A stretch of 25,881 nucleotides of DNA from a virus (IMGVR_UViG_3300032307_000340:1-25881), one strand, 5' to 3'; shown: positions 4,151 to 24,102, numbered from the stretch's first letter. The notes: generated by a model from the sequence alone, not told the origin. Numbers and translations are program-made.

Positions 4151-4714
4151 ATGTCATTGATTAACAAACCAGTACCAGAGTTTAAAACTCAAGCATTCCA
4201 CAACGGCAAGTTCGTTGAAGTTTCAAATGAAACCCTAAAAGGAAAATGGAATGTACTTATTTTTATGCCTGCCGCATTTACATTCAACTGCCCTACAGAA
4301 ATTGAAGATGCCGCAGAAAACTATGCAGAGTTTCAAAAGATGGGTGCAGAAGTTTACATTGTAACTACTGACACACACTTTAGCCACAAAGTATGGCATG
4401 AGACAAGTCCAGCAGTAGGTAAGGCACAGTTCCCACTAGTTGGTGACCCAACACACACTCTAACACGTGGTTTTGGTGTACACATCGACGAAGAAGGTCT
4501 AGCACTTCGCGGCACATTCATTATCAATCCAGAAGGTCATGTTAAGACTGCTGAAGTTCACAGCAACGAAATCGCTCGTGATGTAAGTGAAACACTTCGC
4601 AAGTTGAAGGCAGCACAGTACACCGCCGCTAACCCAGGTCAAGTTTGCCCTGCTAAGTGGAAAGAAGGTGCCGCCACATTGACACCAAGTTTGGATCTAG
4701 TAGGTAAGATCTAA
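4151..4714 (+). CDS. ahpC: Alkyl hydroperoxide reductase subunit C (2-Cys peroxiredoxin)
   Basis: The product is 187 residues, the same length as E. coli AhpC and aligning end to end from MSLIN to LDLVGKI. The peroxidatic Cys47 lies in FTFNCPTE and the resolving Cys166 in VCPAKW. The enzyme reduces H2O2, organic peroxides and peroxynitrite in the cytoplasm and is recycled by AhpF, encoded next. The ribosome site AAAGGAG is strong and the promoter dedicated. The closeness to bacterial AhpC suggests acquisition from a host. Peroxiredoxin in a phage is unusual. With the superoxide dismutase at 23554 it gives a superoxide-to-water pathway. Confidence 0.97.
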   Translation: MSLINKPVPEFKTQAFHNGKFVEVSNETLKGKWNVLIFMPAAFTFNCPTEIEDAAENYAEFQKMGAEVYIVTTDTHFSHKVWHETSPAVGKAQFPLVGDPTHTLTRGFGVHIDEEGLALRGTFIINPEGHVKTAEVHSNEIARDVSETLRKLKAAQYTAANPGQVCPAKWKEGAATLTPSLDLVGKI

Positions 4715-4723
4715 GGAGTAAAA

Positions 4724-6241
4724 ATGACATTAGACGCAAACATTAAAGCTCAGCTCGAGCAGTATCTTGCCTTGATGGAAGGTCCTGTGACTATTACTAC
4801 CTGGACTGACAACAGTAGCACCAGCACAGACATGATCGATTTACTGAACGAGATTGCGTCTATGTCAAGTCTAGTAACAGTTGAACCTGGCGCATTGGAT
4901 GGTACCCGCAGTCCTTCATTTAGAGTTGGAGAACGCATAGCGTTTGCCGGTATTCCAATGGGTCATGAGTTCACCAGTTTGATTATGGCTTTGCTACAAG
5001 TAAGTGGACGTAAGCCAAAAGTAGACGACAAAGTTATTGACCAAATCAAGAATATTCGAGGTGACTACACATTCACTACTTACATTAGCCTAAGCTGCCA
5101 CAACTGTCCAGATGTTGTTCAAGCACTTAATATTATGAGTGTATTGAATCCTGGCATCAAGCACACTATGGTAGACGGTGCAGCCTTCCAAGACGAAGTA
5201 ACTGCTAAGAACATTCTAGCAGTTCCTTATGTTGAGCTTAACGGCAAAGCATTTGGTAGTGGTCGTATGACCTTAGAAGAAATTCTAGCCAAGATGGGCA
5301 GTCAAGCAGATGTAAGTGACATTGATGGTAAGGAGTACGATGTACTTGTTATTGGTGGTGGGCCAGCAGGTGCTAGTGCGGCAGTATATGCGGCACGTAA
5401 AGGTATCCGCACAGGCATTGTTGCTGAACGATTTGGTGGGCAGGTTATGGACACAATGGGTATCGAAAACCTTATTGGTACCAAGTACACAGAAGGTCCT
5501 AAACTAGTCGCACAACTTGAAGAACACGTTAAAGAATACGCAGTTGATGTTATGAACTTACAACGTGCCAAGAGTATTGCTAAGAAAGACATGATTGAAG
5601 TTGAATTAGAGTCTGGCGCCAAATTAAAGTCTAAAACTGTTATTATTAGCACAGGTGCTCGCTGGAGAAATTTGGGCGTTCCTGGCGAAGCTGAATTTAA
5701 GAACAAGGGCGTAGCCTATTGTCCACATTGTGATGGACCACTGTTCAAAGGCAAGCACGTGGCAGTTATTGGCGGTGGCAATAGTGGTGTAGAAGCCGCC
5801 ATTGACCTTGCAGGCATTGTTGGGCATGTGACTGTATTTGAGTTTATGCCAGAACTCAAAGCAGATGCTGTACTTCAAAAACGTCTATATAGTTTGCCAA
5901 ATGTAACTGTACACAAAAATGTACAGGTAAAAGAAATTACAGGTGCAGATAAAGTAAACGGTATCAAGTATGTTGAGCGTGATACTAACACTGAACAACA
6001 TCTTGAACTTGAAGGAGTGTTCATACAAATTGGTCTTGTTCCTAACACAGACTGGATTGGTGATAGAATTGAACGCACTCGATTTGGTGAACTAGTAGTT
6101 GATACGCATGGTCGTACAGACATGCCTGGTGTATTTGCCGCAGGTGATTGTACTAATACACCTTACAAGCAAATCATTATCAGCATGGGCAGTGGTGCTA
6201 ATGCGGCATTAGGTGCTTTTGATTACATCATTCGTAACTAA
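4724..6241 (+). CDS. ahpF: Alkyl hydroperoxide reductase subunit F
   Basis: At 505 residues it is full length for AhpF. The N-terminal double thioredoxin-like domain carries Cys125/Cys128 in LSCHNCPD. The FAD-binding motif [12 protein letters not shown] lies near 208-220, the active-site disulfide Cys333/Cys336 in YCPHCDGP, and the NADH-binding motif [12 protein letters not shown] near 345-357. Electrons pass from NADH through FAD and both disulfides to AhpC. The start is 10 bases after the ahpC stop, with AAGGAG overlapping that stop, so the pair is co-transcribed. All redox cysteines are present, so it should be functional. Confidence 0.97.
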
Positions 6242-12865: not shown

Positions 12866-13069
12866 ATGGTAACAGGAAAAGTAAAATGGTTTAACGATGC
12901 CAAAGGTTTTGGATTCATTACACCGGACAATGGCGGAGCAGACCTTTTTGCTCATTTCTCTCAGATCAATTCAAGTGGTTTCAAAACACTGCAAGAAGGT
13001 CAGAGTGTAAGATTTGAAATCACGATGGGTATGAAAGGTGAGCAGGCTAGTAACATTCAGCCAGCTTAA
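12866..13069 (+). CDS. Cold-shock-domain protein (CspA-like)
   Basis: A 67-residue protein that is one cold-shock domain. [11 protein letters not shown] opens it, KGFGFI is RNP1, and DLFAHFSQI contains RNP2. The order and length match bacterial CspA proteins, which bind single-stranded RNA and DNA and melt RNA structure. It lies directly before the acceptor piece of the tmRNA, with only a few bases between its stop and that RNA, so the two may share a transcript. Confidence 0.93.
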
Positions 13070-13072
13070 AGA

Positions 13073-13137
13073 ATAGTTGTAATCCCTTCAAAGCGAAGGA
13101 CTCTTGGACGCGGGTTCGACTCCCGCCTGGTCCACCA
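13073..13137 (+). ncRNA. ssrA: tmRNA acceptor piece (permuted ssrA, 3' tRNA-like half)
   Basis: CCTTC/GAAGG forms a hairpin at 13085-13099. It is followed by GGACGCGGGTTCGACTCCCG, the conserved tmRNA T-arm region, then CTGGTCC-A-CCA. The 3' strand CTGGTCC (13127-13133) pairs perfectly with GGGCCAG at 13227-13233, which lies downstream instead of upstream. The gene is therefore circularly permuted. The 3:70 pair is G-U, the alanine identity element. The exact 5' end is not certain. Confidence 0.9.
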
Positions 13138-13226
13138 TAAGGAGATTAGTATGAACGACGATTTGACCCACCTAGCAATAGGAGTAGTGGTTGTCTTAGT
13201 AGTTTTTGCGCTAGTACTCTTATGAT
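13138..13226 (+). other. Intervening segment of the permuted tmRNA
   Basis: These 89 bases lie between the CCA end of the acceptor piece and the 5' end of the coding piece. They should be cut out when the precursor matures, probably by RNase P at 13226/13227 and a 3' nuclease at 13137. They are almost wholly filled by a ribosome site and a small reading frame. Confidence 0.8.
13151..13225 (+). CDS. Single-pass membrane peptide inside the tmRNA intervening segment
   Basis: A 24-residue frame starting MNDDLTHLAIG and continuing as one unbroken run of Val, Leu, Ala and Phe to the stop. The charged N-terminus and about 15 hydrophobic residues fit a single membrane helix. AAGGAG at 13139-13144 lies 6 bases before the ATG, and the TGA ends one base before the mature 5' end of the tmRNA coding piece. 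It is too short for ordinary gene finders. The frame, the strong ribosome site and the tight fit make chance unlikely, but translation is unproven. Confidence 0.65.
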   Translation: MNDDLTHLAIGVVVVLVVFALVLL

Positions 13227-13443
13227 GGGCCAGCCATGGTTTCGACAGGGGTAGATAGTAGAGACGGCAACTGAGTAGGCGATGACTCTAAATCAAGCAA
13301 AACTAGTAAATGCAAACGCAAATACAACCGAAGAAGAAGTAATGACTTTCGTCTGGGATCTTCCAGCTAACGAAAGCCGTTACGCTTTAGCAGCCTAAGA
13401 AACTGCACTTCCGGGGCAACTATGCCTTGTCAAATAAAATAGT
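13227..13443 (+). ncRNA. ssrA: tmRNA coding piece (permuted ssrA)
   Basis: GGGCCAG (13227-13233) is the acceptor 5' strand. The D-like segment CATGGTTTCGACAGGGG is typical of tmRNA. A tag frame starts at the resume codon GCA (13312) and ends in TAA at 13396. After the tag, CTGCACTTCCGGGGCA can form the short pseudoknot stem expected in two-piece tmRNAs. A terminator begins at 13444. Together with the acceptor piece it would rescue stalled ribosomes. The mature 3' end of this piece cannot be fixed by eye. Confidence 0.9.
13312..13398 (+). other. tmRNA tag reading frame, 28 residues
   Basis: From the presumed resume codon GCA the frame reads ANANTTEEEV, then MTFVWDLPANESR, then YALAA and TAA. 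The last five residues equal the end of the E. coli tag, which is read by ClpXP and ClpAP with the adaptor SspB helping. The tag is far longer than the usual 8-15 residues. TAGTAAAT directly before GCA resembles the conserved sequence upstream of the resume codon. A later resume codon would shorten the tag. Confidence 0.7.
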
Positions 13444-13470
13444 GAAGGAGCCTTCGGGCTCTTTCTTTTT
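13444..13470 (+). terminator. Intrinsic terminator after tmRNA
   Basis: A 9-bp stem, GAAGGAGCC with GGCTCTTTC, closes on a UUCG tetraloop and is followed by TTTTT at 13466-13470. It ends the CspA-tmRNA region. Confidence 0.9.
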
Positions 13471-13493
13471 GGGTAAATTACCAAATAAAGCTC

Positions 13494-15191: not shown

Positions 15192-15461
15192 TTAAGGTCC
15201 AGCAACGACATTAACTTGTCCGCTAGTGATTAGGTGACCACAGGAAGCTGTGTCACCTATTCTTGCGACTGGGATTCCGCCAGCATAAACGGTAGCACTC
15301 CCACTCGCAATCAAGCTACCAGCGTGTATTCCTTGTCCATGTGGACTAACTGCATCGCCAATTCGAGCTACAGGAACTCCGCCTGCTAATACTGTAGGCA
15401 TCCCTGACGCTATAAGCCCACCTGCAACATCTCCAATTCGTGATATAGGTTGTGCTGGCAT
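15192..15461 (-). CDS. PAAR-domain spike-tip protein
   Basis: The 89-residue protein is a full PAAR domain. MPAQPISRIGDVAGG opens it, two ARIGD repeats follow (VPVARIGDAVSPHGQ and IPVARIGDTASCGH), with His and Cys residues placed to bind the Zn that stabilises the tip. PAAR proteins sharpen the tail spike of contractile phages and type VI secretion systems. This is the clearest sign that the phage has a contractile tail. It is the last gene of its leftward unit, 2 bases after the hydrophobic protein, with no visible ribosome site, so translation is probably coupled. Confidence 0.93.
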   Translation of the reverse strand: MPAQPISRIGDVAGGLIASGMPTVLAGGVPVARIGDAVSPHGQGIHAGSLIASGSATVYAGGIPVARIGDTASCGHLITSGQVNVVAGP

Positions 15462-15463
15462 AA

Positions 15464-16180
15464 TTAAATCGTTGGTGTTGGTGCAACTCTGCCAGCAATG
15501 CCTGCGGCTTGTTGATTAAGAGCTACTTGGAATATACCAAGTACACTTCTTAAAGCTAATGATCTACTTGGAACATCTACTGATGCATTTACCAGTGTTG
15601 CCATAGTACCAAGGGCAGTTCCTATAATTCCAAGAGAAGAATTAATAAGGGTCAACGGTGCAAAATAGTCAGGGAATCCATTTCCTACATACGCTCCACT
15701 ACCAGTTACTAGTGAACCACTAAGAAATGATGTTGCAGACAATCCTGCGGTTGAAGCGGCGGCGGCTGCTCCTGCGGCTAATCCGGTTAAAGTACCAGTT
15801 ACAGCCATTGCTCCACCTAAAGGATTAGAAGTAACAACTGCGACTGGAGTGCCTGGTGGGGTAGGTTGTGCATTAGCTGTTAATGCTTGCGTTATTACTT
15901 GGTATTGATAAGGATCAAGTAAGTCTTTAACTCTTACTCCTCCAGTAGGTTCAATTACAGTTTGAAGGGCGGTTGCTAAAGAAACTACTGATGATGCGAT
16001 ACCTGCAAGTGCCGCACCAGTAGCATAAAGTTCTAAGCTATTATCTGGTATTGCTAATGTAATGTTAGCATTTGGTATTGTAGTTAATCCAGTAGCAACT
16101 CCTGGACCGCTTTGCACCCCAGTGACTGTGTACGGCGGGAACTGAACAATAAAGTTATTGATTCTTGGAATCGTAGGCAT
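15464..16180 (-). CDS. Ala/Gly/Thr-rich hydrophobic protein next to the PAAR gene
   Basis: A 238-residue protein rich in Ala, Gly, Leu, Thr and Val, with several long uncharged stretches (near 50-75, 120-155 and 175-215) that look membrane-active. Charged residues are rare. I recognise no family. Its place directly upstream of the PAAR gene suggests a tail or spike-associated protein delivered with the tip, or a membrane-perforating component. GAGG lies 8 bases before the ATG, and GATAAATAT just upstream recalls a T4 late promoter but is not a full match. Confidence 0.65.
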   Translation of the reverse strand: MPTIPRINNFIVQFPPYTVTGVQSGPGVATGLTTIPNANITLAIPDNSLELYATGAALAGIASSVVSLATALQTVIEPTGGVRVKDLLDPYQYQVITQALTANAQPTPPGTPVAVVTSNPLGGAMAVTGTLTGLAAGAAAAASTAGLSATSFLSGSLVTGSGAYVGNGFPDYFAPLTLINSSLGIIGTALGTMATLVNASVDVPSRSLALRSVLGIFQVALNQQAAGIAGRVAPTPTI

Positions 16181-16206: not shown

Positions 16207-16506
16207 TCAGCCTACAACTTTAATACCTGTAGTGCCTTCAATGTATTGTTCAGCAGCCTTTTTCATGGTAGGCGTCATTACCATTATGCGCTTTTTGGAT
16301 ATCTGTATTCCACTGTCGTTTTCAGCAGTGATCAACCAAGGAGTCATTCCAACACCTTGTGCTCCGTAGCTCAATGTCATTGGTCTACTTACTGTAATGA
16401 ATGCATCGTCTTCTGCATCTAAACGTGCTATTAGTTCTTCAGCAGTACTGAGCTTAATTGTTACAACATCGCCTGATTTTGCTGGTTTCTTAATTAAAAA
16501 AGTCAT
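16207..16506 (-). CDS. Small Sm-like-fold candidate
   Basis: A 99-residue protein. The core GDVVTIKLSTAEELIARLDAEDDAFITVSRPMTL has the strand-turn-strand rhythm of Sm/LSm proteins, in which an Sm1-like stretch ends in an acidic turn. GVGMTPWLITAEND then ISKKRIMVMTP completes a second beta part. This is resemblance only, not an identified family. Sm proteins form rings that bind RNA. The start lies 17 bases inside the DHFR gene, with GGGA 6 bases upstream. Confidence 0.6.
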   Translation of the reverse strand: MTFLIKKPAKSGDVVTIKLSTAEELIARLDAEDDAFITVSRPMTLSYGAQGVGMTPWLITAENDSGIQISKKRIMVMTPTMKKAAEQYIEGTTGIKVVG

Positions 16507-16999
16507 TTTTTTCCCATATTTCGTAACAAATTTCTACATCATTGTCCACTATATTGTCCTGTACATAATCTAGTGTAAAATGTCTAGTTAAAACAGCTTC
16601 TGGGAATTTGGTGTCACACTCATATTCACCATAGATTCTAGTGATATATACACTGTTACAAAATGGTAAAAATTGACGGTAAATTTCAGCACCACCAATA
16701 ATCCATATGTCCAAGTCAGTTGCTTGCTTTAACTTATTAATTATCGTTTTTGGGTCACCTTGAACCTTGATAGCGAAATCGTCATCTAGTGTTCTAGTAA
16801 CAATAATATTTTCTCTGTTTGGCAAGGGACGTTTAGGTAAACTTAGCCAAGTATTTTTACCCATAACAATCATTGAGCCGTCTGTTAATTCTTTAAAACG
16901 TTTTAGGTCTTCTGATAGGTGTGGCCAAGGCATTGTGCCATCCTTGCCAATTCCCCAATTATCATCCACTGCTACGATTGCGTTAATTCTTCTAGTCAT
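16490..16999 (-). CDS. folA: Dihydrofolate reductase
   Basis: The 169-residue protein has the DHFR order. INAIVAVDDNWGIGKDGTMPWPHL includes the Met20-type loop. LSEDLKRFK has the acidic residue that binds the pteridine, IVMGKNTWLSLP contacts the cofactor, and WIIGGAEIY carries the conserved Gly-Gly pair. It reduces dihydrofolate with NADPH, renewing folate for dTMP synthesis. It overlaps the gene upstream by 4 bases (ATGA) and the one downstream by 17. It lies at the end of the small-gene array in the same transcript. Confidence 0.95.
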   Translation of the reverse strand: MTRRINAIVAVDDNWGIGKDGTMPWPHLSEDLKRFKELTDGSMIVMGKNTWLSLPKRPLPNRENIIVTRTLDDDFAIKVQGDPKTIINKLKQATDLDIWIIGGAEIYRQFLPFCNSVYITRIYGEYECDTKFPEAVLTRHFTLDYVQDNIVDNDVEICYEIWEKNDFFN

Positions 17000-17352
17000 T
17001 TTGATCGAGTGCCTTTCTCACCCCATTTTAATAAAAAATATGAATAATCCCTTGCTTTTAATTTAGCTGTTACAGCAAATGTATGTCCCCAGTTTATATT
17101 GTCTGTATGTCTGTGCCACATAGGAGTTTCAATAGCATTTTCCATCACCCATTTGCCAGCATCACTGTTTTGCCAAGCAATCAATGGCTCGGCGGCATAT
17201 AATACAGGATCTTCAACGTCACCCATATTAAACGTGTGTACAACAGCGTCATGTACCTCATGTACCCTATCTTCTATTTGCATATATTTGTATGTTACCT
17301 TTTTTGGTACTTCTCCTAAATAGCCATTAGTAATGGCTTGTCTATTCATCAT
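16996..17352 (-). CDS. Small-gene array member 7 (C-terminal FLLKWG)
   Basis: A 118-residue protein, the longest of the array. The start, a double ATG, lies 11 bases inside the preceding gene with GGGG upstream. The N-terminal 90 residues (with VPKKVTYKYMQIEDRVHEVHD) are unlike the other members. The C-terminus, TAKLKARDYSYFLLKWGEKG, has the shared signature of aromatic, basic/acidic pair, then F-L-L-K-W-G. Function unknown. Confidence 0.7.
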   Translation of the reverse strand: MMNRQAITNGYLGEVPKKVTYKYMQIEDRVHEVHDAVVHTFNMGDVEDPVLYAAEPLIAWQNSDAGKWVMENAIETPMWHRHTDNINWGHTFAVTAKLKARDYSYFLLKWGEKGTRSK

Positions 17353-17536
17353 GTCGACCCCATGTTAATAAAAACAACATGTGGTCTTTTTCGTTTTCAA
17401 AATAGACAATTCTACTGCCAAAGCCACCTCTTACAAACCATCTGCGTTCGCCTATTCTTTCATTTAGCCAATCAACTATATGCTCAGGCAATGAATTGGC
17501 TACTTCTATTCCGTGATATTCTTTATTAGCAATCAT
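17342..17536 (-). CDS. Small-gene array member 6 (C-terminal FLLTWG)
   Basis: A 64-residue protein, the shortest of the array. ERRWFVRGGFGSRIVYFENEKDHMLFLLTWG shows the shared ending with strand, acidic pair and FLLTWG. The first half contains a short helix (PEHIVDWLNERIG). It overlaps the upstream gene by 4 bases and the downstream gene by 11. Function unknown. Confidence 0.7.
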   Translation of the reverse strand: MIANKEYHGIEVANSLPEHIVDWLNERIGERRWFVRGGFGSRIVYFENEKDHMLFLLTWGRHDE

Positions 17537-17757
17537 GAACTTGCATACCTTAAAGCAAACAATGTAGCGTATTTGTCATCATAAAATTTAAACAATGAAT
17601 GTTTCCCTTCAATAAGGGACCAGTTATCATCAGAATATTTTGCTTGCATATAACTAAAATCAAAATCTATCCCTTGCTTCAAACCTTGTTCTCTAAGTTC
17701 TCGTACAATGTCCATAGTTTTGTTTGCATCAATGCCTGGTATTTTGATTTCTTTCAT
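17533..17757 (-). CDS. Small-gene array member 5 (C-terminal FALRYA)
   Basis: A 74-residue protein. I place the start at the ATG at 17757, which forms an ATGA overlap with the stop of the previous gene. An ATG 24 bases further upstream would add eight residues read within that gene. The ending LFKFYDDKYATLFALRYASS carries the shared signature with Arg-Tyr in place of Lys-Trp. Upstream there is a helix rich in charged residues. Function unknown. Confidence 0.65.
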   Translation of the reverse strand: MKEIKIPGIDANKTMDIVRELREQGLKQGIDFDFSYMQAKYSDDNWSLIEGKHSLFKFYDDKYATLFALRYASS

Positions 17758-18032
17758 GAACCCCATTTCAATAAAAACCATGATGCGTCTTTGGGTAGTT
17801 CAAATACCCAAACCCGTCCCATGTCTTTAAAATCGCCTTGGATATTAGTTGTTACCCATTGATCAATTTCTGAAATCTTCTCATGTGTCATAGGTGCAAG
17901 TTTAACTCGAGTCCATCCAATATCGCACAACAAGTCTGTGAGAATGGTAAAGTCTATTTCCTCTGCCATCTGTTTGCCCGCACGATTGATAATATCTTGT
18001 TCAATACTATCATATTCGTATAACATGCCCAT
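17754..18032 (-). CDS. Small-gene array member 4 (C-terminal FLLKWG)
   Basis: A 92-residue protein ending GRVWVFELPKDASWFLLKWGS, with strand, Pro-Lys-Asp turn and FLLKWG. A middle helix (DFTILTDLLCDIGWTRVKL) and EKISEIDQWVTTNI resemble the helix-strand order seen in other members. The start shares a single base with the end of the gene upstream. Function unknown. Confidence 0.7.
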   Translation of the reverse strand: MGMLYEYDSIEQDIINRAGKQMAEEIDFTILTDLLCDIGWTRVKLAPMTHEKISEIDQWVTTNIQGDFKDMGRVWVFELPKDASWFLLKWGS

Positions 18033-18322
18033 TATGAATACCTCAATACAAACAACAATTGATCTTTGGTGTGCCTAAACCAAAATTTAGCATTGTTAAC
18101 ATACCAACGACTACTAGGAGTCCATACTCCATCCTCAGTAGTTGGTCCAAATGTTTTTACACACCATGCTACCATTTCATCCCACTTGACATGATGTCCG
18201 TAGAATCCCCAACCCATAGGCTGTACCGTATAGTATCTAGCACCATACACACGACCTTCATCTAATACCAATTGATATTCTGGGCCGCCCATTCTATCGG
18301 TTAAAAGTCTTTTCTTTTTCAT
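18032..18322 (-). CDS. Small-gene array member 3 (C-terminal FVLRYS)
   Basis: A 96-residue protein. The end, NAKFWFRHTKDQLLFVLRYS, carries the shared signature. The middle part is rich in Trp, Tyr and Gly (YYTVQPMGWGFYGHHVKWDEMVAW). The start at 18322 overlaps the previous gene by 29 bases; an ATG at 18292, 2 bases after that gene's stop, is equally possible. Function unknown. Confidence 0.65.
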   Translation of the reverse strand: MKKKRLLTDRMGGPEYQLVLDEGRVYGARYYTVQPMGWGFYGHHVKWDEMVAWCVKTFGPTTEDGVWTPSSRWYVNNAKFWFRHTKDQLLFVLRYS

Positions 18323-18587
18323 CTATAATTTCTGAATAACGAAGCAAAAACATTGTGCGTTTAGGTTCACTGTAAAAATCTAAATGTATGTTGTGTACTA
18401 ATTCTTTGTATCCGCCGTCTGGCTTTTTATAATGCACCCATTCTGAATGTTCTCTAACTGTGAATCCCAAACGTTGTTTCATCTTTTCTCTAATGAGCAA
18501 GGTGCTTTTGGACACCGTTTGATCCTTGGTCATTTTGAGTTTGATATCCTCCCACTGGGATAATGATAATTTGATTGCTTTAGACAT
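18294..18587 (-). CDS. Small-gene array member 2 (FLLRYS)
   Basis: A 97-residue protein. LDFYSEPKRTMFLLRYS shows the shared signature, here followed by a 14-residue tail (EIIDEKEKTFNR). The start overlaps the first gene of the array by 8 bases. A basic helix (LLIREKMKQRLGFTVREHSEW) precedes the signature. Function unknown. Confidence 0.68.
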   Translation of the reverse strand: MSKAIKLSLSQWEDIKLKMTKDQTVSKSTLLIREKMKQRLGFTVREHSEWVHYKKPDGGYKELVHNIHLDFYSEPKRTMFLLRYSEIIDEKEKTFNR

Positions 18588-18837
18588 CAGGATATCTCAA
18601 AAGGAATAGCATGTATCTTTTTGGATCAACTATTTCAAAGTCCTCAGATATATTTCCTGAGTTATCAAATTTGAGCTTGATACCAAATTTTTCTTGTAGG
18701 TATTGATAAAATCCAGCATTGCTAATTAAATGCTTTATATTAGGATTTGATTCTAAATAATCATGACGGCATTCACGAATCCTTCGCCAATAAGAATTAC
18801 GTTGCCTCTTGTGTTTGTTATCAATAGATTCCGTCAT
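18580..18837 (-). CDS. Small-gene array member 1 (FLLRYP)
   Basis: An 85-residue protein, first in the array and transcribed from the promoter at 18860-18888. The N-terminus is very basic (KHKRQRNSYWRRIREC), which could bind nucleic acid. The middle has a helix AGFYQYLQEKFGI, and the end FEIVDPKRYMLFLLRYPDV carries the shared signature. No ribosome site is evident. Function unknown. Confidence 0.68.
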   Translation of the reverse strand: MTESIDNKHKRQRNSYWRRIRECRHDYLESNPNIKHLISNAGFYQYLQEKFGIKLKFDNSGNISEDFEIVDPKRYMLFLLRYPDV

Positions 18838-18859: not shown

Positions 18860-18888
18860 ATTATACATGACAGATAGACTTACGTCAA
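18860..18888 (-). promoter_or_regulatory. Promoter of the small-gene array and folA unit
   Basis: On the minus strand TTGACG (18883-18888) and TATAAT (18860-18865) are separated by 17 bases. The start would be near 18853, leaving a leader of about 16 bases before the ATG at 18837. The -35 overlaps the end of the upstream reading frame. Confidence 0.75.
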
Positions 18889-19364
18889 ATGTTTTTGACC
18901 TTGCTTGGTTTCTTTTTGTAGTAGCGTTTTGGCTTGTCTACTGCGGGAGAATTGTACATCATTTTTTTGGCTTGTTCTGCACGTTCAATAGCCGCATTGA
19001 CTTGTTCTGGAGTAGGATCCAATACATCAAAATCTTCTTGTTGATCTGCTAACACAGGAGCAGTTTGGCTATATGGAAGTTCAATTCCCATTTTACCCAA
19101 ATACTTTTTAGTACTAAACCCTTGTTTGATTTCTCTGTATGCACCAATTGGACCAGTTGCATCTTGGCTCATATTTTCCCAAGTTCTAACTTCCAATAAA
19201 GGTTCTATTGATGATGGTAACTCAACTATGTAAAATTCAATATCTTTACTGTAACCTGCATGTTCTAAGTCAAAAATATCAATTACTTTACCCTTGTGTA
19301 ACTTGCCGTCGCCAATATGGATCCATGCAGTTTCATTCATTTCATACTGTTTTTTAATTTTCAT
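18885..19364 (-). CDS. Conserved-looking phage protein of unknown function
   Basis: A 159-residue protein. The first 75 residues look like a small beta domain (TAWIHIGDGKLHKGKVIDIFDLEH, then DIEFYIVELPSSIEPLLEVRTW). The C-terminal third has an acidic linker, a helix (EQVNAAIERAEQAKKMM) and a very basic tail (KPKRYYKKKPSKVK) that could bind nucleic acid. No family is recognised. It is the third gene of the Bax-inhibitor unit, 6 bases after the DUF3307-like gene. Confidence 0.65.
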   Translation of the reverse strand: MKIKKQYEMNETAWIHIGDGKLHKGKVIDIFDLEHAGYSKDIEFYIVELPSSIEPLLEVRTWENMSQDATGPIGAYREIKQGFSTKKYLGKMGIELPYSQTAPVLADQQEDFDVLDPTPEQVNAAIERAEQAKKMMYNSPAVDKPKRYYKKKPSKVKNI

Positions 19365-19752: not shown

Positions 19753-20445
19753 TTAGTCCTTGCGACCACCAAATAGTTGTAGCAAACTTAGGAACAGGTT
19801 AATGAAGTCCAAGTACAAGCTCAATGCTCCTGCTACTTCTGCTCTACCATCATTATCCAAACTGACCATCTCACGAATCTTTTGTGTGTCATAAGCGGTA
19901 AGACCTAAAAACACAATTACAGCAATAGCACTAATTACCATTTGCATTACAGTACTACCAATAAAAATATTGATAATGCTGGCAATGATAATAGCAATAA
20001 GACCAATAAACATAAATTGACCAATGCTGTCAAGATTCTTTTTGGTAAAGTATCCATAACCACTCATTACTGCGAACAATACTGCGGCTGACATAAATGC
20101 TGATACAATGCTACCTAAATTGTAAACAACAAAAATTGTAGCAAAGCTCAATCCCATCAGGGCCGCAAAACCATGTAAGAAAATTTGCAAAGCACTCTTG
20201 CTCATCTTTTCCATATTGAAACTAACTGCAAGAATTGCTACCAAGGGTGCAAAAATTACAAGCCACTTCATTGCACCTGTGAAAAAGAATTCCATTAGTG
20301 CGGCGCTGTTGCCAACTAGAAAACTAACAATCATCGATGTAATGACTGCCAATGCCATATGTCCGTAAACACGACCCATAGCACTGTTAATTTGCTGTGC
20401 TGAACGGTAAGTTGACAAACCGCCAGTATAACTCGATCCAAACAT
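19753..20445 (-). CDS. Bax inhibitor-1 / YccA-family membrane protein
   Basis: The 230-residue protein has about seven hydrophobic helices and the family ending, LTAYDTQKIREM then ALSLYLDFINLFLSLLQLFGGRKD. Bacterial relatives YccA and YbhL sit in the inner membrane; YccA inhibits the protease FtsH, and other members leak Ca2+. A phage copy could protect phage membrane proteins from FtsH or delay host death; that is inference. GGAGT precedes the ATG. It heads a three-gene unit with a clear promoter and palindrome. Confidence 0.92.
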   Translation of the reverse strand: MFGSSYTGGLSTYRSAQQINSAMGRVYGHMALAVITSMIVSFLVGNSAALMEFFFTGAMKWLVIFAPLVAILAVSFNMEKMSKSALQIFLHGFAALMGLSFATIFVVYNLGSIVSAFMSAAVLFAVMSGYGYFTKKNLDSIGQFMFIGLIAIIIASIINIFIGSTVMQMVISAIAVIVFLGLTAYDTQKIREMVSLDNDGRAEVAGALSLYLDFINLFLSLLQLFGGRKD

Positions 20446-22916: not shown

Positions 22917-23573
22917 TTAATATTTTCCTGAAGCAAGTACTATCTTGCAAATATGTTCTAATCTTTCAATGTGTTCGTATGCTCTCCACGGACTTGTATC
23001 TATAGCAACCACCCCGTGTCCTTTAATACCCACAATGTCGTAGGCAATATTGCCACGATCATCTAATTCTAACCGATAATGACATTGATCAGCTAGCTCT
23101 TGACTAATTGGAGGTACATCTCCAACATTGGGTGCTACCTTTGTATAACGATTAAGTTCTGGAAATGCAGAACTAATTGTACTTAAATCAATTCCGGCAT
23201 GCATGGCTGCAATACAATAAGTTGGATGTACGTGTACTACTACACGAACATCATTACTATGCTGACCCATTTCACGTTGTAGACCAAAGTGTAACGGCAA
23301 TTCGCCACTAGGCTTTAGATTAGCACTGATATCTGAATAAGGAAGGTCACGCCAATTATAATTAAAAGATGCAGTGCCACTGCCACTTTGAATAGATCTA
23401 TCAATGCTTATCTTTTTAAATTGATCTGGCTGTAGAGTTTGCTTACGTACACCGCTAGGGGTAATGTAAAAGTGATCACGGTCATGATGACGTATTGACA
23501 CGTTACCATCACGACTAGTAATCCAGTTACGCTTGTAAGCGTCTACCATAATGTCACATATCGTTTCTAACAT
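22917..23573 (-). CDS. Class II aldolase/adducin-family protein
   Basis: The 218-residue protein has the family's zinc site: His114 and His116 in VVHVHPTY and His186 in GIKGHGVVA. GNVSIR (24-29) and PSGELPLH hold the phosphate loop and the acidic Glu91. Relatives are fuculose- and ribulose-phosphate aldolases and epimerases and methylthioribulose-phosphate dehydratase. The substrate cannot be fixed by eye. It lies between superoxide dismutase and nrdB, an odd place for carbon metabolism. A role in salvage of deoxy sugars or methylthio compounds is inference. The start overlaps the SOD gene by 20 bases; Met9 is another possible start. Confidence 0.85.
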   Translation of the reverse strand: MLETICDIMVDAYKRNWITSRDGNVSIRHHDRDHFYITPSGVRKQTLQPDQFKKISIDRSIQSGSGTASFNYNWRDLPYSDISANLKPSGELPLHFGLQREMGQHSNDVRVVVHVHPTYCIAAMHAGIDLSTISSAFPELNRYTKVAPNVGDVPPISQELADQCHYRLELDDRGNIAYDIVGIKGHGVVAIDTSPWRAYEHIERLEHICKIVLASGKY

Positions 23574-24102
23574 TTACGTGTTCCCAATTAATAATTTTCC
23601 ATTGATTCTCTAAGTATTTTTTCTTGTCTGCTTGGTAGTCTAATGCCCAAGCATGTTCCCACCAATCAATTAATAATACAATGTCTTTTTTAACTTCATG
23701 ATTCTTGATAGTTTTAATCTTGCCGTCTTTAGCAAGATAGACCCAACCACTGCCTTGTATGCCCATTGCTACTTTGAGAAACTCTTCTTTGAACTTGTCA
23801 AATGACGTATAGTGTTCTTCAATGAATGTTAGTATACCGCCTTTAGGTTTGTTATTACTTGGCTTCTGATATTGTTGAAACAATATGTTGTGTAGGAATA
23901 CGCCTGCTTCATTAAACACAGGATCACCTTCGCCAGCATTATACCGTTTAGCGTAAGTTTTAGCAAGATTGTCGTAATGATACTCTAAGGTTATTTTTGA
24001 AATGGCTGGATCTAAAGCATCCATTTCATAGGGCAGACTTTTAATTTCTAACTTGTCGGGCTTGCCTTCTAGTAAGACGTTTCTAATAAAACTGTAGGTC
24101 AT
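23554..24102 (-). CDS. Fe/Mn-type superoxide dismutase
   Basis: The 182-residue protein aligns with Fe/Mn SODs. LPYEMDALDPAIS then LEYHYDNL holds His42, VFLHNILF holds His71, and DWWEHAWALDY holds Asp146 and His150, giving the full metal set. GSGWVYL and the ending QWKIINW are also typical. Four residues before His71 is Gly, as in Mn enzymes. The second-shell Gln is not obvious, with NHE in its place, so metal use is uncertain. The usual second His after HYG is missing (HYDNL). It removes superoxide in the cytoplasm. It overlaps nrdA by 4 bases (ATGA), so SOD is made together with ribonucleotide reductase. Confidence 0.92.
   Translation of the reverse strand: MTYSFIRNVLLEGKPDKLEIKSLPYEMDALDPAISKITLEYHYDNLAKTYAKRYNAGEGDPVFNEAGVFLHNILFQQYQKPSNNKPKGGILTFIEEHYTSFDKFKEEFLKVAMGIQGSGWVYLAKDGKIKTIKNHEVKKDIVLLIDWWEHAWALDYQADKKKYLENQWKIINWEHVNVRNDM

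Follow-up and report, generated by a model that had tools for sequence, protein, structure and literature searches.

Runs of small, variable genes located beside genes of nucleotide metabolism occur among the early genes of T4, in the takeover module of SPO1 and in anti-CRISPR loci, where the encoded proteins are mostly unrelated, whereas in the array described here all members share one domain. Expansion of a single small domain within one jumbo phage also has a precedent, i.e., the lineage-specific set of about 35 zinc-ribbon proteins of Bacillus phage G, which is likewise made of many paralogues whose function is guessed, according to the part of the source available to us (PMC7824862). The family presented here differs from that expansion in having a predicted beta-alpha-beta-beta-alpha domain in which Cys makes up 1.7% of residues, and it has no match in phage G; a connector of dual use is not mentioned in the accessible part of that report (PMC7824862). 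Translational coupling of overlapping gene pairs through ATGA or TGATG is well studied, and as described in the available portions of two sources it involves stop/start overlaps of 4 or 1 nt, as do most junctions of our family (PMC6728339, PMC10666635). Unlike in ordinary ATGA coupling, a conserved protein motif here appears to provide the Shine-Dalgarno sequence at successive junctions, whatever gene follows. Paralogue expansion in jumbo phages and ATGA coupling are thus already known, while neither the family nor the reuse of a protein motif as an array connector was found described in the literature searched.

A seven-gene array with a common C-terminal motif

The window (the entire stretch of 25,881 bases analysed here, from an IMG/VR virus record) carries tRNAs and tmRNA and, as judged from translations, genes for ribonucleotide reductase and dihydrofolate reductase (DHFR). 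Positions 16996-18837 of the minus strand are filled by seven consecutive ORFs, each overlapping its neighbour (Table 1), and neighbouring genes belong mainly to nucleotide and DNA metabolism. The first starts of some array ORFs are probably too early; for gene 5, the likelier start by sequence is an ATGA at 17757, with a 4 nt overlap with the preceding stop. Gene 7 is the most widespread and conserved orthologue of the array (54 related loci), and its neighbours in other contigs include ThyA, ThyX and DHFR. It is also the weakest of the seven by the 24-column HMM introduced below, yet both the motif and the common predicted fold are present. DHFR directly follows gene 7 in most relatives but is absent in L007 by tblastn.

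An earlier note on this sequence had described seven tandem, overlapping genes ending in one C-terminal motif, and this is confirmed: the pattern F[LAV]L[KRT][WY] lies within the last 30 residues of 7 of the 178 window ORFs of at least 38 aa, exactly the seven array genes. As to chance occurrence of the motif, a concern voiced in the same note, related loci contain 11,373 non-member ORFs, of which 2 carry it near their end. The small protein at 1376-1582, suspected there to be a distant eighth member, shows Phe at positions -13 and -4 and Trp at 0 (counted from the motif Trp), but reaches only 3.3 bits (E=27) with the 24-column HMM and was rejected.

Table 1 Features of the array and its surroundings, with coordinates in the window. 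The stop codon directly follows the C-terminal end given, unless a tail is noted
Feature	Position	Strand	Length by first start (aa)	C-terminal end	24-column HMM E	dN/dS vs L004	Remarks
DHFR, downstream flank	16490..16999	-					tblastn with DHFR query; one relative's copy matches Pfam DHFR_1
Array gene 7 (P0007)	16996..17352	-	118	YFLLKWG, then 8-residue tail	0.025 (weak)		adjoins DHFR
Array gene 6 (P0006)	17342..17536	-	64	LFLLTWGRHDE	1.6e-8	0.29	near-minimal domain
Array gene 5 (P0005)	17533..17781	-	82	LFALRYASS	2.3e-6	0.22
TAAGG in Leu-Arg codons of gene 5	17548..17552	-					ahead of gene 6 start (ATGA overlap); from sequence
Array gene 4 (P0004)	17754..18032	-	92	WFLLKWGS	4.3e-6	0.32	helical front IEQDIINRAGKQMAEEID
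Array gene 3 (P0003)	18032..18322	-	96	LFVLRYS; KFWFRHTKDQLLFVLRYS	1.4e-5	0.14
GAGGT in Leu-Arg-Tyr codons of gene 3	18040..18044	-					ahead of gene 4 start (TAATG overlap); from sequence
Array gene 2 (P0002)	18294..18587	-	97	MFLLRYSE, 13-residue tail past motif	2.3e-5	0.08	HLDFY group
Array gene 1 (P0001)	18580..18837	-	85	LFLLRYPDV; FEIVDPKRYMLFLLRYPDV	3.3e-4	0.15
Sigma70-like promoter TTGACG-17-TATAAT	18860..18888	-					11/12 match, by consensus only; just upstream of gene 1
Conserved protein, upstream flank	18885..19364	-	159				function not assigned; upstream of array in L002, L004, L007, L008, L011, L012

A large family in environmental phages

A 24-column HMM of the C-terminal region, seeded on the seven array genes and then iterated, revealed a large family, with none of its members in shuffled sequence. 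The expansion by duplication proposed in the earlier note is supported. In the first related loci, the first-round model matched about 107 ORFs at E<0.1 (vs 1 in shuffled copies) and the iterated one 201 at E<0.01 (0 in shuffled copies). At least 580 further ORFs at E<0.01 came from 120 additional loci, again with 0 in shuffles; since these loci were picked by a DNA pattern, the numbers obtained from the pattern search are lower bounds and the member count is no estimate of frequency, and most of the loci held several members besides the matched one. Altogether, the loci examined contained at least 774 members at E<0.01 and shuffled sequence none. Conservation across 780 members reaches 89% for F-13, 95% for F-4, 96% for L-2 and 85% for W0, and in the domain alignment A3 there is little or no variation at W23, F46, F55 and W59. 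That the seven array genes are homologous to one another is, on these profiles, almost certain.

The family resides in environmental phages, often of jumbo size, at 1 to 54 copies per contig, e.g., contigs of 154, 321, 417, 436 and 608 kb hold 46, 36, 54, 42 and 33 copies, respectively, while the cultured Sinorhizobium phage Phosso (469 kb) has about 43 (copies were counted with a longer domain profile, at E<=0.1 for one set and at E<=0.01 for the other). Density in some contigs is approximately one copy per 3-8 kb, the longest uninterrupted run has 13 members, and the median protein length is about 81-85 aa. Twelve of 14 reference phages lacked the family (T4, P-SSM2, HTVC008M, phiKZ, G, CcrColossus, PAU, KVP40, S-PM2, Acj61, phiM12 and pT24), Atu_ph07 gave six weak matches to A3 (best E 3.5e-6) but none to the 24-column HMM on the stretch examined, and SCTP-2 gave two very weak ones. 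A stricter DNA pattern, which itself finds 40 loci vs 126 by the looser one, was without a match among the genomes of 85,000 species of bacteria and archaea.

The family is without a model of its own in Pfam, PHROGs or NCBIfam. In Pfam, none of P0001-P0008 passed the cut-off and the 38 members of A3 produced just two matches, both weak and isolated, NCBIfam had nothing above cut-off, and PHROGs gave weak matches only (phrog_7515 for P0007, E 0.013; 2 of 26 relatives, best 2.4e-4). With P0006, tblastn also gave weak hits in N4-like phages and in one Erwinia phage, which were discarded, as the encoded proteins lacked the motif or shared one helix only.

A predicted compact domain

P0006 and P0007 were modelled with AlphaFold2 from separate alignments, following a suggestion of the earlier note, and both models show the same core. 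The P0006 model (pLDDT 84) consists of beta8-12, alpha18-27, beta33-38, beta41-46 and alpha49-59, and the P0007 model (pLDDT 80) has a corresponding beta-alpha-beta-beta-alpha core. The common domain is accordingly predicted to be ferredoxin-like without the last strand: a complete ferredoxin/RRM fold, with its fourth core strand, is absent from both models, which end at the helix past the third strand. The motif forms the third core strand and the last helix in each of them. As the near-invariant positions (F-13, F-4, L-2 and W0) are spaced and hydrophobic, the motif reads as packed core, and judging by this pattern of conservation it is probably buried in the domain.

The order of strands and helices resembles that of small ferredoxin-like, RRM-like and KH-like domains and of the MscS cytosolic domain, from all of which the family domain differs by the missing strand, Z-scores below 7 and the failure to find any sequence relationship. 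The best PDB neighbours of the two models have Z-scores of 6.8 and 5.8. Weak neighbours of P0007 were MscS cytosolic domains (Z about 5.5), and those of P0006 were a tied mix of V-ATPase, ACT, RRM and KH domains (Z 4 to 6); for the KH chains (Z about 4), no GXXG loop was seen by eye in the A2/A3 consensus. The best matches of P0006 in a viral library were nearly all small proteins of uncultured phages. A PDB sequence search returned only chitobiase (E 0.004), taken as chance. The net charge of members is centred at -1 (5-95%: -7 to +6), and a DNA mimic or a basic nucleic-acid binder was rejected because this is near zero.

Motif codons as a probable ribosome-binding site of the next gene

Genes of the wider family usually stop one residue past the Trp, the tail being a single residue in 85% of coupled members. 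Of 714 unique members, 502 are followed by a start that overlaps their stop (-4 or -1 nt). Where the overlapping start is ATG, the codon for Leu(-2) is TTG in 67% of members (same-gene background 20%) and that for Arg(-1) is AGG in 76% (background 7%). The resulting junction reads TT-GAGGTG-GNN-ATG, from codons TTG AGG TGG NNA TGA, and GAGGTG can pair with the 3' end of 16S rRNA. This hexamer is present at 160 of 384 ATG junctions with a -4 overlap, and at 178 junctions the anti-Shine-Dalgarno match ends 3 nt before the ATG. With the codons for Leu-Arg-Trp-x-stop holding GAGGTG 3 nt ahead of an overlapping ATG, each gene would therefore carry the translation start of the next one. Arrays L207 and L141 have TTGAGGTGG or CTGAGGTGG at most of their internal junctions, and the last member differs.

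The mean longest anti-Shine-Dalgarno match in the 20 nt before the overlap was 4.63; synonymous resampling gave 3.04 +/- 0.05, and 269 coupled pairs made up of non-member ORFs gave 3.58. In 50 members without a downstream ORF it was 3.24 (resampled 3.18), and these retain the residues (aromatic 98%, L 94%, F 86%). Arg(-1) is encoded by AGG in 273 of 365 coupled members vs 1 of 22 without a downstream gene (P=2e-11), the residue itself being basic (Arg/Lys) in 92% of the coupled ones, and the Shine-Dalgarno signal persists among members below 60% identity. On these statistical grounds, we consider it very probable that the motif codons of the wider family serve two purposes.

The array in the window shows such dual use only weakly. 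Two of its six internal junctions have a 5 nt Shine-Dalgarno match derived from the motif (Table 1), AGGTG is found at none, and -4/-1 overlaps are seen for genes 3/4, 4/5 (with the likely start) and 5/6. Neither is it universal, as the genes of Phosso are scattered, fewer than half of them are coupled, and Arg(-1) is not conserved. Its motif is F-K-L-x-W/F, and Arg occupies position -1 in only 8 of 31 members while F(-4) and L(-2) stay, which suggests a largely RNA-level reason for keeping Arg(-1) and a protein-level reason for keeping F, L and W.

Turnover, fronts and selection

The six relatives keep the flanks of the array (the 159-aa gene upstream and DHFR or the next gene downstream), but gene sets and orders between them differ. 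A comparison of gene number among related phages, proposed from the window, thus uncovered differences in both number and order within conserved surroundings. L004, the closest relative, is the exception and shares both the set of seven genes and their order. After the group of gene 4 comes that of gene 5 in the window, but L008 and L011 have other groups there.

Fronts are exchanged as well. A P-loop front (GRxTGKSMYxQYAQ) occurs in L007 and in L011/L012 (E 3e-13) on unrelated C-terminal parts; an origin of this front from RNR, DnaB or UvsX was not retained, the matches being weak only. A helical front resembling that of gene 4 likewise recurs with other back halves, as do an MNSKQRR and a GYPY front. 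Out of 771 pairs of fronts matching at E<1e-5, 705 had the same back half and 21 did not (C-terminal parts matching only at E>0.01), hence swapping is real but infrequent. The idea of a fixed end with differing fronts is supported, but members also have in common a helix upstream of that end, in which a Trp is nearly invariant.

Against L004, dN/dS was 0.08-0.32 in the seven genes and 0.03-0.11 in most flanking genes (0.21 in one alanine-rich neighbour). There is no sign of gene-wide positive selection, all array values being below 0.35 at close range. These low values, higher than those of the flanks, indicate that the array genes are functional and evolve faster than the enzymes that surround them.

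Promoter-like sites

The promoter-like site upstream of gene 1 has a counterpart in L004 (an 11/12 match at the equivalent place, spacing 18), L007, L011 and L012 have a different 10/12 site before the array, and no promoter-like site was found before the array in L002 and L008. Promoter-like sites show no excess over the region as a whole and an 11/12 site lies within 300 nt in only 6 of 51 other arrays, so early expression is something that we infer.

Proposed origin and role of the arrays

Taken together, the explanation that we favour, and hold to be probable rather than secure, is that of a family built on a scaffold domain, joined by a connector of dual use and deployed as an early, host-directed set. 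The array in the window would be one local representative of a large family of small phage proteins with a single domain, in which the C-terminal stretch is probably core strand and helix in the protein and, at the RNA level, also the ribosome-binding site of the next gene. With such a connector, cassettes could enter or leave an array, change places or acquire new fronts while expression is maintained. Exchange of this kind fits the turnover seen between conserved flanks, and we think it somewhat likelier than not that shuffling proceeds through the connector. Transcription of the array is probably early, from a host-type promoter of its own, and the gene products may affect different targets in the host or its defences, for which the common domain would provide the scaffold and the variable surfaces and fronts the binders. 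The chances of such a host-directed role seem to us about even, and the description of the array in the earlier note as an inhibitor or adaptor set is plausible.

Co-translated paralogues could instead assemble into one hetero-oligomer, e.g., via the edge strand that the incomplete ferredoxin-like sheet leaves exposed. Overlapping gene pairs often code for subunits of heteromeric complexes, as stated in the available part of one source (PMC10666635), and the frequent -4/-1 coupling of members agrees with this. We nevertheless regard it as unlikely, as gene number and order vary widely even among close relatives, copies per contig range too broadly for a fixed stoichiometry, and the members of Phosso are scattered.

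In the reading of the earlier note, the fixed end would act as a free docking peptide for a single common partner, and the variable fronts would bind different targets. The usual stop one residue past the Trp, the basic residue at -1 and the existence of front swapping would all suit such a peptide. It is a rather improbable reading, however, for in both models the motif forms the final helix of a compact domain and its conserved positions look like core, while the overlapping start and the Shine-Dalgarno sequence largely explain the exact stop and the Arg; in Phosso, where few genes are coupled, the Arg is mostly missing. We therefore do not favour a free docking end.

Nucleic-acid binding of the RRM or KH type, by which the set would regulate RNAs, draws on the RRM and KH domains among the fold neighbours of P0006 (Z 4-5). 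These are tied with ACT, V-ATPase and other folds, the charge of members is close to neutral and the last RRM strand is missing from both models, making this role doubtful at best. Tandem copies can be homogenised, but a neutral by-product of duplication, with AGG-TGG codons alike through recent homogenisation, is very hard to reconcile with dN/dS well below 1, with array-end members that keep the residues and lose AGG, and with an equal signal in members below 60% identity.

Returning to the scaffold family with its dual-use connector, we tentatively extend it to a cassette system that needs no integrase, a possibility to which we give slightly less than even credence. The last four codons would combine core helix, Shine-Dalgarno sequence and overlapping start, such that any member could follow any other, and large phages might in this way assemble, lengthen and rearrange arrays that can reach dozens of early effectors, with Arg(-1) kept mainly for its codon.

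The family looks to be among the larger unnamed paralogue families of environmental phages. The double use of codons offers a concrete route by which arrays of small genes may grow while each new gene stays translated, and it serves as a warning that a conserved protein motif may be kept partly for reasons of RNA. As Phosso grows on Sinorhizobium meliloti, proteins of the family can be studied in culture, and if they act on host defences, the arrays would constitute a large source of new inhibitors.

Gene 7 relatives and other small proteins of the arrays

Homologs of gene 7, the last gene of the array (16996-17352, minus strand, next to the DHFR gene), share the consensus GDVEDPxxYAAxPLxxWQxSExGKWVMEHAxETPxWH and adjoin a thymidylate synthase, ThyX or DHFR gene in many contigs, frequently as one copy only. 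We consider that this family may have a role of its own in dTMP synthesis. In several members of the wider array family, from related viral loci, the N-terminal part holds a short Walker A loop (GRxTGKS or a similar sequence), with too little space for a complete ATPase domain. A second conserved small protein found within arrays is possibly a distant member of the array family.

Additional gene content

The alanine-rich gene shows lower conservation (72%) than the genes around it (96-98%), and the Bax-inhibitor-1-like gene is 93% identical to its counterpart in L004, the closest relative of the window. Seven tRNA genes are found besides the tmRNA gene, at other positions. The co-occurrence in the window of a peroxiredoxin-like/AhpF-like gene pair and a superoxide dismutase-like gene, as judged from their translations, suggests a phage-borne oxidative-stress set.

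Features of the window and of related viral loci (L)
Feature	Position	Remark
Peroxiredoxin-like gene, then directly thioredoxin-reductase/AhpF-like gene	4151-6241	Translations read by eye
tmRNA gene	13045-13489	Tag ANANTTEEEVMTFVWDLPANESRYALAA; phage contig
PAAR-like protein gene adjoining alanine-rich 238-aa gene	15192-16180	
Bax-inhibitor-1-like membrane protein gene	19753-20445	Assigned by eye from translation
Fe/Mn superoxide-dismutase-like gene	23554-24102	Translations read by eye
Family members with N-terminal Walker A loop	L007 4596-4994; L012 3392-3781; L083 8468-8803; L085 2962-3285; L008 4620-4955	
Conserved small protein within arrays	L011 4845-5129; L008 5465-5791; L012 4902-5183	VVWGRSIGWN...WVVWGTGFHMEP...YATLFEL
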